A DNA stretch of 47,795 nt, taken from the NCBI GenBank assembly GCA_902787575.1, contig CADAGX010000020.1, positions 1-47,795 on the forward strand. Reading direction: 5' to 3'. Positions within the stretch are counted from its first letter, which is position 1; each line of letters opens with the position of its first letter. Source of the DNA: an uncultured Bacteroidales bacterium (GTDB taxonomy: Bacteria > Bacteroidota > Bacteroidia > Bacteroidales > Bacteroidaceae). Made by a program: the position numbers and the translations under genes. Under the pieces are notes generated by a model. The model did not search any database, was not told where the DNA came from, and saw only the letters and a list, made by a program, of their open reading frames with translations. Positions 4,027-35,526 of this stretch are shown in pieces.

Positions 4027-4446
4027 TTACGTGTTTTTTGCGGCAAGTGTGGCGCGTCCGTATTCGTGCCACCATCTTGCGGCTGCTCCCACGGCGCGAA
4101 CGGGAACCTGGATGCGGTCTGGCCAGGAGGACGGGACTTCGTCGTGATTGATGCGGGCAAGCATGCAGAAGAAGGTGAGGTCGCCATCTATGTATGCATG
4201 CAGCTTCTGCATGGCGAGGACGGTGCCCAACTTGAGATCGAAGTCTGCCTCGCCGTTGGTAAACTGCACATGGGCTACCAGGTGCGGCGGCTTCTGCTGG
4301 TACAATAGCCAAGCCTCGCCATAGCCTTCTATGTGGCGACACTCGGCCACGAAATCTGTCTGCTCCACGTGCTGCGGAGCAAGGCCACGCTCCACGGTTC
4401 GCGGGAACAGTTGAATACAATCTACATGAAATTTTCTGCGTTCCAT
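4027..4446 (-). CDS. Hypothetical protein, 139 aa
   Basis: I do not recognise this protein. It is soluble, without signal peptide or membrane segment, and rich in His, Arg and aromatic residues (for example 'YGEAWLLYQQKPPHLVAHVQF', 'LARINHDEVPSSWPDRIQVP', 'RWWHEYGR'). The GC-rich codon usage with C or G at third positions matches the core genes further right and not the AT-rich Wadjet genes, which supports this frame over two overlapping frames on either strand. A TACCTTTG minus-strand -7 element at 4567-4574 would give a leader of about 110 nt. It stands alone between tRNA-Leu and the Wadjet operon, so context gives no function. Confidence 0.65.
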   Translation of the reverse strand: MERRKFHVDCIQLFPRTVERGLAPQHVEQTDFVAECRHIEGYGEAWLLYQQKPPHLVAHVQFTNGEADFDLKLGTVLAMQKLHAYIDGDLTFFCMLARINHDEVPSSWPDRIQVPVRAVGAAARWWHEYGRATLAAKNT

Positions 4447-4566
4447 ATCGTTTACTGTTTAGTGAATAGATGGGTCTCGTTCACTCGCATCTTTTTACCA
4501 CCGTTGCCAACGATCTTCAGGCTGGTTGGTGGGCACAAAGGCCACTCTTGATGCAAAATTCTGCCG

Positions 4567-4666: not shown

Positions 4667-4748
4667 TACCCAGAGCCGGGATCGAACCGGCACGCCTTGC
4701 GGCATTGGTGTTTGAGACCAACGCGTCTACCAATTCCGCCATCTGGGC
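4667..4748 (-). tRNA. tRNA-Leu(CAA)
   Basis: The minus strand folds into a class II (long variable arm) tRNA: acceptor GCCCAGA/TCTGGGT, D-arm with GGTAGACGC, anticodon stem TTGGT/ACCAA around loop CTCAAAC giving anticodon CAA (decodes UUG), variable arm TGCCGCAAGGCGT, and T-arm GCCGGTTCGATCCCGGC. The discriminator base is A; CCA is not encoded (ACGA follows). The first acceptor pair is G-U. It has its own promoter and terminator. The 3' end points toward the Wadjet genes. Confidence 0.95.
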
Positions 4749-26456: not shown

Positions 26457-27383
26457 TCAGGCGTCTTGCTGGTTTCTGGGATGGTGGTGCAGGATGGTGT
26501 CGCGCAGGCGACTCTGCTCGATATGGGTATAAATCTCGGTGGTGGCAATGCCTTCGTGGCCCAGCATGGCTTGTATGGCACGCAGGTTGGCACCTCCTTC
26601 GAGCAAGTGAGTGGCAAAGCTGTGGCGGAAGGTGTGCGGACTGATGTTCTTCTGCACGCCGGCACGCTTGGCATAATCCTTGATGAGGCAGAAAACGCTG
26701 ATGCGGCTCAGGTGTTTCTTGCGCCGCAGTGAGACAAAGACGTAATTCTCCTCGCCAGGCATCACTTCGGTGCCTTGTCGCTCCACAAACCACTCCCTGA
26801 GGCGGTGGATGGCTTGCGCTCCGATGGGCACGAGCCGCTCCTTGCGGCCTTTGCCGTGGACGCGGATGTATTCTTCCTCAAGGTAGAGGTCGTTCATCTG
26901 CAACTGACAAAGTTCGCTCACACGCAGGCCACAGCTGTATAGCATCTCTATGATGGCCCGGTCGCGCACGCCTTCGGGCTTGCTGACATCTACAACCGCC
27001 AGTATGTCTTCTATCTCCTCAAGGCTGAGCACTTCGGGCAGGTGTTTTCCTATTTGTGGACTCTGCAGCAACTCGGTGGGGTCGGTCTGCACCTCGCCTT
27101 CGAGCGTAAGAAAGCGGTAGAATGAGCGAACGCCGCTTAGTATGCGGCAGAGACTGCGCGGCTGAATGCCCAGATCGCGCAGGGTGCCGGCAAAGCGGTC
27201 GAGCTGTTCCAGCGTAACGGTGCGGAAGTCGATTCCCTCGTCGGCAAAGAAGGAAAGAAGTTTTTGCAAGTCGTCTTCGTACGCGGCCAGCGTATTGGGC
27301 GTGTAAGAGCGTTCCAAGCGCAGGTATTGCCTGTAACGTTTCAGTATTTTGGGGTCAATATTTCCGATATTCGACAAATTCAT
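26457..27383 (-). CDS. xerD: Tyrosine recombinase XerD
   Basis: 308 aa from ATG 27383, which has an AGGA ribosome-binding sequence 10 bases upstream; a longer GTG start at 27416 would run into the divergent aroQ promoter and is rejected. The SAM-like N-domain spans about 10-95 and the catalytic domain about 115-295. Catalytic residues are complete: R154 (CGLRVSEL), K178 (HGKGRK), H250 and R253 (SPHTFRHS), H276 (LGHEG) and Y285 (EIYTH). The size and the lack of adjacent mobile genes argue for the housekeeping chromosome-dimer recombinase (XerD type) acting at dif, not an integrase of a mobile element. Confidence 0.93.
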   Translation of the reverse strand: MNLSNIGNIDPKILKRYRQYLRLERSYTPNTLAAYEDDLQKLLSFFADEGIDFRTVTLEQLDRFAGTLRDLGIQPRSLCRILSGVRSFYRFLTLEGEVQTDPTELLQSPQIGKHLPEVLSLEEIEDILAVVDVSKPEGVRDRAIIEMLYSCGLRVSELCQLQMNDLYLEEEYIRVHGKGRKERLVPIGAQAIHRLREWFVERQGTEVMPGEENYVFVSLRRKKHLSRISVFCLIKDYAKRAGVQKNISPHTFRHSFATHLLEGGANLRAIQAMLGHEGIATTEIYTHIEQSRLRDTILHHHPRNQQDA

Positions 27384-27404
27384 GTAATTTTCCTGCCTCT
27401 TCTT

Positions 27405-27434
27405 TTTGCTTTTCACGAAACTTTCCTATCTTTG
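27405..27434 (+). promoter_or_regulatory. Promoter of aroQ
   Basis: TTTG (27405-27408), 18-bp gap, TATCTTTG (27427-27434). Leader of about 20 nt to ATG 27461. It lies between the divergent xerD and aroQ genes. Confidence 0.8.
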
Positions 27435-34171: not shown

Positions 34172-34684
34172 TTATTTGGTCAACTCCAGCCCTAATTCTT
34201 TCAAGTGTTCTTCGTCAAAAAATGTTGTCTTGCTACCACGCGTTGCGGTGAAGAGAAGATACGAGTCCTCTGTTACAGACAACTGAAGGAGACCGTCTTC
34301 GCGAATGTCAAAACTGCTAATACGACTTATCATGTTCAAGTATTTACTCCATTTTGGATCTGTGCAATATCCTTCTTCACACACAAAGTTTTTAAAGTGA
34401 ATTTTGTTGCCAGAAATAATTACATCATCTGCATAAAAGCCTGCCGTCGGAGCGGCGCCGTCCATGCGTCCTTCACTGAAAGACACCCGATATAGCGGGT
34501 CGCCCTCGCCGGTTCCCACCTGTGTGTATTCGCCGTCCTCGGCGTAACCGACCCAATACCATGTACTCTTATACAAAGCCTGCACAGCAAACGTCGTATT
34601 GTCGTCGTCGCTGCTGCACGAACTGAACATCGGCATTGCCAAAACGGCCAATGCTATGATTGAAATAAAAAAAGTCCTCTTCAT
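34172..34684 (-). CDS. Small lipoprotein, first of a tandem pair
   Basis: 170 aa from ATG 34684; the promoter TATCTTTG at 34712-34719 excludes the longer start at 34714. Signal peptide with lipobox 'MFSSCSS'. Shared with the downstream paralogue: 'VQALYKSTWYWVGYAEDGEYTQVGTGEGDPLY', then 'FDIREDGLLQLSVTEDSYLLFTATRGSKT'. It lacks the 14-residue linker insert of its partner and has a different middle section, 'CEEGYCTDPKWSKYL', with two cysteines. Unknown function; probably exposed at the outer membrane. The 62-bp gap to the second gene has no promoter, so both are likely on one transcript. Confidence 0.82.
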   Translation of the reverse strand: MKRTFFISIIALAVLAMPMFSSCSSDDDNTTFAVQALYKSTWYWVGYAEDGEYTQVGTGEGDPLYRVSFSEGRMDGAAPTAGFYADDVIISGNKIHFKNFVCEEGYCTDPKWSKYLNMISRISSFDIREDGLLQLSVTEDSYLLFTATRGSKTTFFDEEHLKELGLELTK

Positions 34685-34711
34685 AATTTCATCTTTTAAG
34701 TGTTTCCGCTG

Positions 34712-34742
34712 CAAAGATATACATTATTATTTTCCGCGCAAG
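34712..34742 (-). promoter_or_regulatory. Promoter of the tandem lipoprotein genes
   Basis: On the minus strand CTTG (34742-34739), 19 bp, TATCTTTG (34719-34712). Fixes the translation start at 34684. Confidence 0.75.
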
Positions 34743-34808: not shown

Positions 34809-34898
34809 GCGGCATTTGACAAGCAAATGCCCTACAGCATGGCGCGATATTCCGCGAAAAAAGCCTACGTGTAGGGAATTTGCTTGTCAAATTCCGCA
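34809..34898. repeat. Composite palindromic element with TGTAGG ends (copy 1)
   Basis: Two inverted halves: GCGGCATTTGACAAGCAAAT…CCCTACA (34809-34836), itself a hairpin, and TGTAGGGAATTTG…CAAATTCCGC (34870-34898), also a hairpin, around about 33 bp. It resembles bacterial interspersed mosaic (paired REP) elements. Related units are at 33439, 35454 and 47066. Confidence 0.8.
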
Positions 34899-35005: not shown

Positions 35006-35088
35006 CGGATGGGATACAAGCAAATTTTCTATTTGTGATGCGTAAGCAAAGAAAAACATGCATTCTACCCCTCTAAAAATTTTTCTCC

Positions 35089-35411
35089 GAAAAAACCTAC
35101 ACACCTACACTTTTGCGTGGTAATTGGTTGAACTTCTGCGCAGTATAGGGGTGTAGGTTCGGGTGTAGGCAAGCCGAAAATGTGTAGGTTCGGGGTCGTT
35201 TTGGCTGCATTTCTTCCAAAATCTGCTTTGTCAGGTGGTGAGTTCGGTGTGACGTGTTGCACGACTTTTTTGGCGTGTGAAATGTTAAATGTTGCGTGTC
35301 GTGCAGTAAAACCTACACGCTTTTCACGAACCTACACCCGAACCTACACTGTGGTAACAATATGAAATATAGCGAATTGATGTGCAAATGGTGTAGGATG
35401 TAGGTTTTTTC
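35089..35411. repeat. ~320-bp dyad carrying mirrored TGTAGG motifs
   Basis: CCTACAC occurs at 35096 and 35104, GTGTAGG at 35151, 35163 and 35182, CCTACAC at 35312, 35331 and 35343, GTGTAGG at 35391 and ATGTAGG at 35398. Each left motif has a right partner of opposite orientation whose coordinates sum to about 70500 (centre 35250), and both ends read GAAAAAACCTACA inward. The bases between motifs differ strongly between arms. No ORF of credible composition lies inside. Confidence 0.8.
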
Positions 35412-35453
35412 AGAGAAAAAAATTGGGGAAGCTATATATTGTACACGACGTGG

Positions 35454-35526
35454 TGTAGGGAATTTGCTTGTCAAATTCCGCGCGACACGAATATTTTTTC
35501 GGTCTTTGACAAGCAAAGACCCTACA
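35454..35526. repeat. Composite palindromic element with TGTAGG ends (copy 2)
   Basis: TGTAGGGAATTTG(CTTGT)CAAATTCCG and the inverted mate CTTTGACAAGCAAAGACCCTACA enclose about 23 bp. Same architecture as 34809-34898. Confidence 0.8.

Follow-up and report, generated by a model that had tools for sequence, protein, structure and literature searches.

A multicopy element family of Bacteroidales with ends that look like SaPI-type iteron replication origins

What is the mirror-symmetric array of short words that lies between a minus-strand frame with no Pfam match (34172-34714) and a plus-strand S41 protease gene (from 35656) in the window, the whole 47,795-bp stretch of DNA analyzed here? The reading that we favor, with modest confidence, is that this dyad derives from a mobile element with two genes, of which it is a copy without genes, and that its half-units are iteron origins, read by the helicase of the element, that also serve as the element ends.

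RESULTS

Architecture of the dyad

The ten CCTACA/TGTAGG words reported in the initial annotation were found where it had placed them. They form five mirrored pairs whose coordinates, taken as 6-mers, sum to 70500 in four cases and 70501 in one. Ten of the 28 such words in the window fall within the 341 bp of the dyad, and the remainder of the window holds 0.13 per 341 bp. The ends had been set at 35089 and 35411; the mirror symmetry of the flanks was found to run further out, to 35068-35071 (CCCC) and 35425-35428 (GGGG). The dyad consists of a rigid ~113-bp half-unit that occurs twice, in inverted orientation, around a 113-bp center. Each half-unit follows one plan: a T5-C-n3-G-A5 palindrome, two words, about 41 nt, and three inverted words. 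Rfam gave no match at the dyad. The features are as follows.

35068-35193, plus strand: left half-unit, running from a CCC flank through the palindrome, two words, and the ~41-nt spacer to the three inverted words; profile match at 35075-35190, E 2.6e-26
35080-35095, no strand: left outer palindrome, TTTTTC-TCC-GAAAAAA, from the half-unit alignment and sequence
35096-35110, plus strand: words 1 and 2, CCTACA (35096-35101) and CCTACAC (35104-35110), from sequence
35151-35188, minus strand: words 3, 4 and 5, GTGTAGG at 35151-35157, 35163-35169 and 35182-35188, from sequence
35194-35306, no strand: center separating the half-units, common to window-type copies, from copy comparison
35307-35428, minus strand: right half-unit, the inverted copy; profile match at 35308-35428, E 1.0e-23
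35312-35349, plus strand: words 5', 4' and 3', CCTACAC at 35312-35318, 35331-35337 and 35343-35349, from sequence
35391-35404, minus strand: words 2' and 1', GTGTAGG (35391-35397) and TGTAGG (35399-35404), from sequence
35405-35420, no strand: right outer palindrome, TTTTTTC-AGA-GAAAAA, from sequence

A repeat family built from half-units

A search pattern for words 1 and 2 located 52 half-units at 36 sites of the same genome, window included, among 35 fetched stretches resembling the 341 bp plus the window itself. A sequence profile made from 48 half-units recovered the same 52, each with an E value of 2e-14 or better (150 of 553 first-look candidates scored). Since the sites at C2:88602 and C2:91154 are the two ends of one 2673-bp element, the 36 sites make 35 elements, of which 16 are inverted pairs, 18 are single half-units, and one is full length. 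The complete window-type plan is found in six copies, in one of which the similarity is cut short. The three right-hand words played no part in collecting the half-units, and in the alignment they are nearly invariant, conserved in 48 to 52 of 52 per column, with one column at 50; the spacer is not AT-rich and is variable except for a TTA..TTG..C.GCGTTA pattern. Words and their spacing are thus kept while the intervening bases diverge, as the initial annotation had proposed for a 320-bp dyad. Inverted pairs in this genome, by contrast, vary in total length between 178 and 390 bp while the half-units stay rigid in other copies, so geometry is conserved per half-unit and not per dyad. Similarity in the alignment stops at CCC, 7 to 10 nt beyond the T-run. 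By a rough frame call, 33 of 34 classified sites are intergenic, and L037 may overlap a frame.

Just inside six of the 18 single sites (L025, L031, L033, L034, L037, and L038) lie 22-nt arrays of GCGACGTGTGGC-type words. Similarly, 10 of the 12 copies fetched from genome G029 (L219-L230) consist of one half-unit joined to 22-nt GTATCACCGGTGA repeats at the other end, mostly about 310 bp overall. Because of these joins, single half-units may be the ends of elements that have a different type of other end. L229 and L230, also from G029, have another right part that is common to both.

Full-length elements in relatives

BLAST of the 341 bp against 60 relatives returned no match, so the half-unit profile was needed for relatives. 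With stricter filters and 25 candidates scored per genome, it placed half-units in 41 of 139 genomes of the genus, our own included. Inverted pairs in relatives measure about 0.5 to 0.9 kb or 3 kb, and in several relatives the half-units are paired, inverted, and about 3 kb apart. In all seven ~3-kb elements fetched, the half-unit ends bracket a DUF6078 gene and a gene for a VapE-like helicase of ~705 amino acids, with BT4734-like_N, VapE-like, and DUF3874 Pfam domains in the three proteins scanned. This agrees with the early suggestion that the words are subterminal sites in a small transposable element, and the replication gene that was to be looked for is there. The VapE-like frame is broken in two in L081; in the 2673-bp element of our genome it is open over 750 amino acids. 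DUF6078 was not found in that genome (87% complete). Among the frames of L075, L077, L079, and L093, only DUF6078 and/or VapE-like genes lie inside, with no transposase and no integrase.

A scan of public genomes yielded 48 helicase loci, 7 of them identical with the fetched ~3-kb elements. A close clade comprises 26 loci (L148-L169, L171, and L192-L194). DUF6078 adjoins the helicase in 23 of these 26 (19 of 22, plus 4 of 4 in Prevotella, two of these partial; the contig of L166 begins too near the helicase to judge). In Prevotella vespertina, P. jejuni, P. veroralis, and P. denticola the helicase is shorter and lacks the N-terminal domain. The remaining 22 loci (L170, L172-L191, and L195) form a second, divergent VapE-like clade of the same genus, 32 to 38% identical, in which we found neither DUF6078 nor half-unit-like inverted ends; L173 and L187 have short, weak inverted pairs. 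Half-units occur in 20 of 24 genus genomes with a close-clade helicase versus 21 of the remaining 115 (Fisher P = 2e-9), an association that is partly built in, as full elements carry their own half-units. Six of 16 genomes with at least five half-units lack a close-clade helicase, in genome sequences that are incomplete. Across 295 genomes of the order, DUF6078 was found in 8, and 13 DUF6078 loci of other genera have no VapE-like neighbor. Viral contigs contained three helicase relatives (25 to 29% identity), and those in plasmid (51) and phage (246) records were all below 60% identity.

The iteron word changes together with the helicase C terminus

In all 22 of the 26 close-clade loci that were viewed, by eye, an iteron array starts within about 95 nt after the helicase stop and lies within 150 nt of it, which agrees with the proposal of an origin-like iteron array. 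Half-units of the same plan were also found with different words, namely GTGGCAG, GTTGCAG, GTGACGG, GTGACGC, GTGACTG, GTGATAG, GTGAAGG, GCGTAAG, and GTGACAG. By BLAST, inverted arms of at least 43 nt were present in 14 of the 26 loci and arms of 26 to 29 nt in L162 and L193; for L153, L155, L166, and L192 the right end alone was found, and the ends of L165 are ambiguous. Elements with both ends seen have the same word at each, with mixtures in L148 and L149. Two word types occur within one genome (L151 and L153).

Word distance tracked the C-terminal wing of the helicase when distance in the N-terminal domain, linker, or ATPase was regressed out (partial r of 0.39, 0.25, and 0.29, respectively; reached in fractions of 0, 0.0035, and 0.0015 of 2000 permutations). 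With the N-terminal domain accounted for, the word was likewise tracked by the linker and the ATPase (P = 0.0015 and 0.0145); with the wing accounted for, it was tracked by neither (P = 0.33 and 0.10). These statistics cover 17 elements with words typed by hand; L149 (mixed), L151 (odd C terminus), L163 and L164 (incomplete), L165 (unclear), and the Prevotella proteins were left out. One helicase illustrates the pattern: L153, which has another word than L150, L151, L152, and L168, is 76 to 100% identical to them per 50-residue window over residues 1 to 650 and 51 to 62% identical over residues 651 to 700, although with the right end alone found for L153, one crossover could move the wing and the adjacent right end together. 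Wing identity was 90 to 96% in four of five same-word control pairs and 69% for L151-L168, where the L151 C terminus is odd. In these sequence comparisons, word and wing covary and the geometry stays fixed while words change. On this covariation, the helicase C-terminal domain is a candidate reader of the iteron word.

The AlphaFold2 model of the helicase is nearest to PriRep1 (7pds; Foldseek E 1e-14), followed by AsfvPrimPol, NrS-1 PrimPol, and D5-type helicases; a sequence search also matched 7pds (E 0.00025), and the wing is modeled as helix-helix-hairpin (pLDDT 79 to 91). By family, sequence, and predicted fold, the protein thus resembles an initiator-helicase. Both glycines of GxxxxGK[ST] are lost in 23 of 23 element helicases, whose Walker A reads QGxHKS (20/20) or QGY[RK]KS (3/3); the Walker A lysine and serine and the Walker B motif are kept in L148-L162, L165-L169, L171, L192, and L193. 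In the clade that has no such ends, GKS is retained by 13 of 13 helicases. For an active AEP primase, the available part of one study gives motif I as hhhDhD/E (PMC5862659). The acid pair is absent from all 20 full-length element proteins, which read LEV (19) or LDV (1), the second acid missing, and so do not show this motif. With the Walker A glycines and the acid pair lost, activity is uncertain. A dN/dS of 0.14 to 0.22 in seven pairs indicates purifying selection on the helicase.

Element ends, flanks, and alternative explanations

Target-site duplications, for which a check at the dyad ends had been proposed, were sought at offsets of -6 to 21 and lengths of 3 to 8 against shuffled pairings. 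None was found in the 33 usable elements of 36 (3 had no anchor), no length rising above the shuffled maximum. Empty sites were not found among the relatives compared, of which the nearest is 78% identical even in ctp. The right flank of L152 matches elsewhere just as short pieces (65 to 88% identity, five genomes). L151 (6200-6320) and L168 (6240-7760), from two species, have a locus in common that is occupied in both; the right end of L151 stops within the terminal palindrome. Outer flanks depend on the host, with pyrimidine-CCC in our genome and CATACTA or CGCGCG runs elsewhere. Alternating CGCGCG runs lie just outside one end in several species (L075-L078, L081, L082 at both ends, L090, L130, L199-L201, and others of G029) and may reflect a target preference or belong to the element.

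Ordinary MITEs would account for the inverted ends, the intergenic sites, the patchy distribution (41 of the 139 genomes of the genus), and the gene-less copies. The half-units would then be transposon ends, moved by cut-and-paste or copying by a transposase encoded elsewhere, with VapE and DUF6078 as cargo. Inverted ends in common with a full-length element were indeed found; a target-site duplication (33 elements) and a transposase in the parent (frames of four elements) were not. Also against MITEs, both genes recur in seven of seven elements and the word tracks the VapE wing, and we consider them unlikely.

Less likely still are host regulatory or chromosome-organizing sites, at which a host protein would bind words near promoters and the family would be kept for the host. 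Single half-units do often have divergent genes on their two sides (10 of the 17 that were classified; the orientation labels are rough, since the frame call put the gene to the right of the dyad on the wrong strand), and some inner ends immediately precede promoter-like TTTGC boxes. However, half-units are absent or placed elsewhere in the nearest species, and among the matches listed none lies just upstream of ctp, a gene present in 134 of 139 genomes. The ends also bracket a gene pair, and the word changes with the element, even between L151 and L153 of one genome.

DUF6078 is Cys-rich; a PDB sequence search with it gave chance-level matches alone, and an NCBIfam search gave no useful match. 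That the words are DUF6078 operators controlling the element promoter, with no origin role, is very improbable: the left half-unit immediately precedes DUF6078 and HTH folds are matched weakly by its model (pLDDT 86; best E 0.55), but the gene was not found in our own genome, 16 of 21 proteins retain [YF]YRYR in their putative recognition helix across changing words, and the array after the helicase would be left unexplained.

DISCUSSION

The repeat family and its full-length elements are observed directly; word binding, origin activity and replication, integration, and mobilization in trans are what we infer for them. Under the favored reading of helicase-read origins, the parent would be a two-gene element of rumen and gut Bacteroidaceae and Prevotellaceae, and each ~113-bp half-unit would be an iteron replication origin, in which words of opposite orientation surround a ~41-nt spacer, with an AT-rich palindrome alongside. 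The VapE-like initiator-helicase would read the word with its C-terminal winged helix, load, and open the DNA, by analogy with SaPI Rep as described in the portions of the literature available. A full element would have one origin immediately downstream of the helicase gene and, at the opposite end ahead of DUF6078, a second in inverted orientation. The two would jointly form its terminal inverted repeats, and gene-less copies would be served in trans by the helicase. The spacer, which is not AT-rich, and the six genomes with at least five half-units and no close-clade helicase speak against this reading.

The closest parallel is with SaPI/SCCmec replication modules (Rep, Cch2, or PriRep1 with an iteron origin). 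The SaPI origin is treated in PMC7145576 and PMC7581432; in the available parts of the latter, the C-terminal domain of SaPI Rep recognizes an iteron origin directly downstream of the rep gene; the parts seen of PMC4980987 and PMC10969869 held nothing relevant to it. The elements described here likewise have a primase-helicase fold, iterons directly downstream of the helicase gene, and, from covariation, a C-terminal domain as the likely word reader. Unlike those modules, they have no integrase or recombinase that we saw (nor SaPI-type attachment sites in L075, L077, L079, and L093, where frames were listed), an origin-like array that is present twice, in inverted orientation, one at each end, dozens of copies without genes, a Bacteroidales host, a DUF6078 partner, and degenerate Walker A and primase motifs. 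As integrase, transposase, and target-site duplication were not found, we claim membership in neither SaPIs nor MITEs. The helicase shares its PF08800 N-terminal domain and PF05272 ATPase with the BT4734-like AEP family, as far as the accessible text describes it (PMC5862659), but the element clade lacks the motif I acid pair and is bracketed by inverted arrays. BrickBuilt, a MITE of Porphyromonas gingivalis, is also a multicopy intergenic repeat of Bacteroidales, and some half-unit copies likewise join ~22-nt tandem repeats; its short TIRs, which in the text seen resemble IS5-family elements (PMC4596501), differ from iteron half-units, and with the GAGACC-type TIR absent this identity was dropped. 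Searches of the open literature (DUF6078, VapE/iteron, primase-helicase TIR, BT4734, BF3469, and Prevotella MITE) found no description of such an element.

More speculatively, and as a possibility that we advance only tentatively, these may be a class of mobile elements propagated by replication that starts from an origin in each end, with an initiator-helicase of their own and neither transposase nor integrase. The origin would be the selfish unit, single half-units and gene-less pairs would multiply as parasites of the helicase, and word and wing would diversify into mutually blind types. The favored reading of helicase-read origins, for its part, joins satellite-type replication origins with dispersed-repeat ends, which are usually held apart. 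If right, it would explain an intergenic repeat family that is present in many copies in Bacteroidales of the rumen and gut. It would also give DUF6078 its first context (no paper on it was found in the open literature) and supply naturally matched sets of iteron word and winged helix in which origin specificity could be studied. Movement without transposase or integrase is a directly testable question of mechanism.

The palindromes neighboring the dyad had been thought to be recognized by the same factor. They proved to be a separate REP-like family, GTAGGG-AATTTGcttgtCAAATTCC, at 34871-34895, 35455-35479, and 35500-35526 of the window and also at G000 C1:149956-150246, with 35 exact copies in the genome. 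Because six copies cluster within about 600 bp of the sole Y1_Tnp gene found, palindromes and gene are probably a RAYT-type system. REP/BIME repeats with RAYT have GTAG beside a hairpin. The REP-like copies resemble them in this and flank the dyad on both sides, but they are a family separate from the half-units, with a Y1_Tnp gene of their own.

Elsewhere in the window, all on the minus strand, Rfam placed a SAM-I/IV riboswitch and a tRNA at 4445-4559 and 4667-4748, and a Phage_integrase-family protein, perhaps XerC/XerD, is encoded at 26457-27416.
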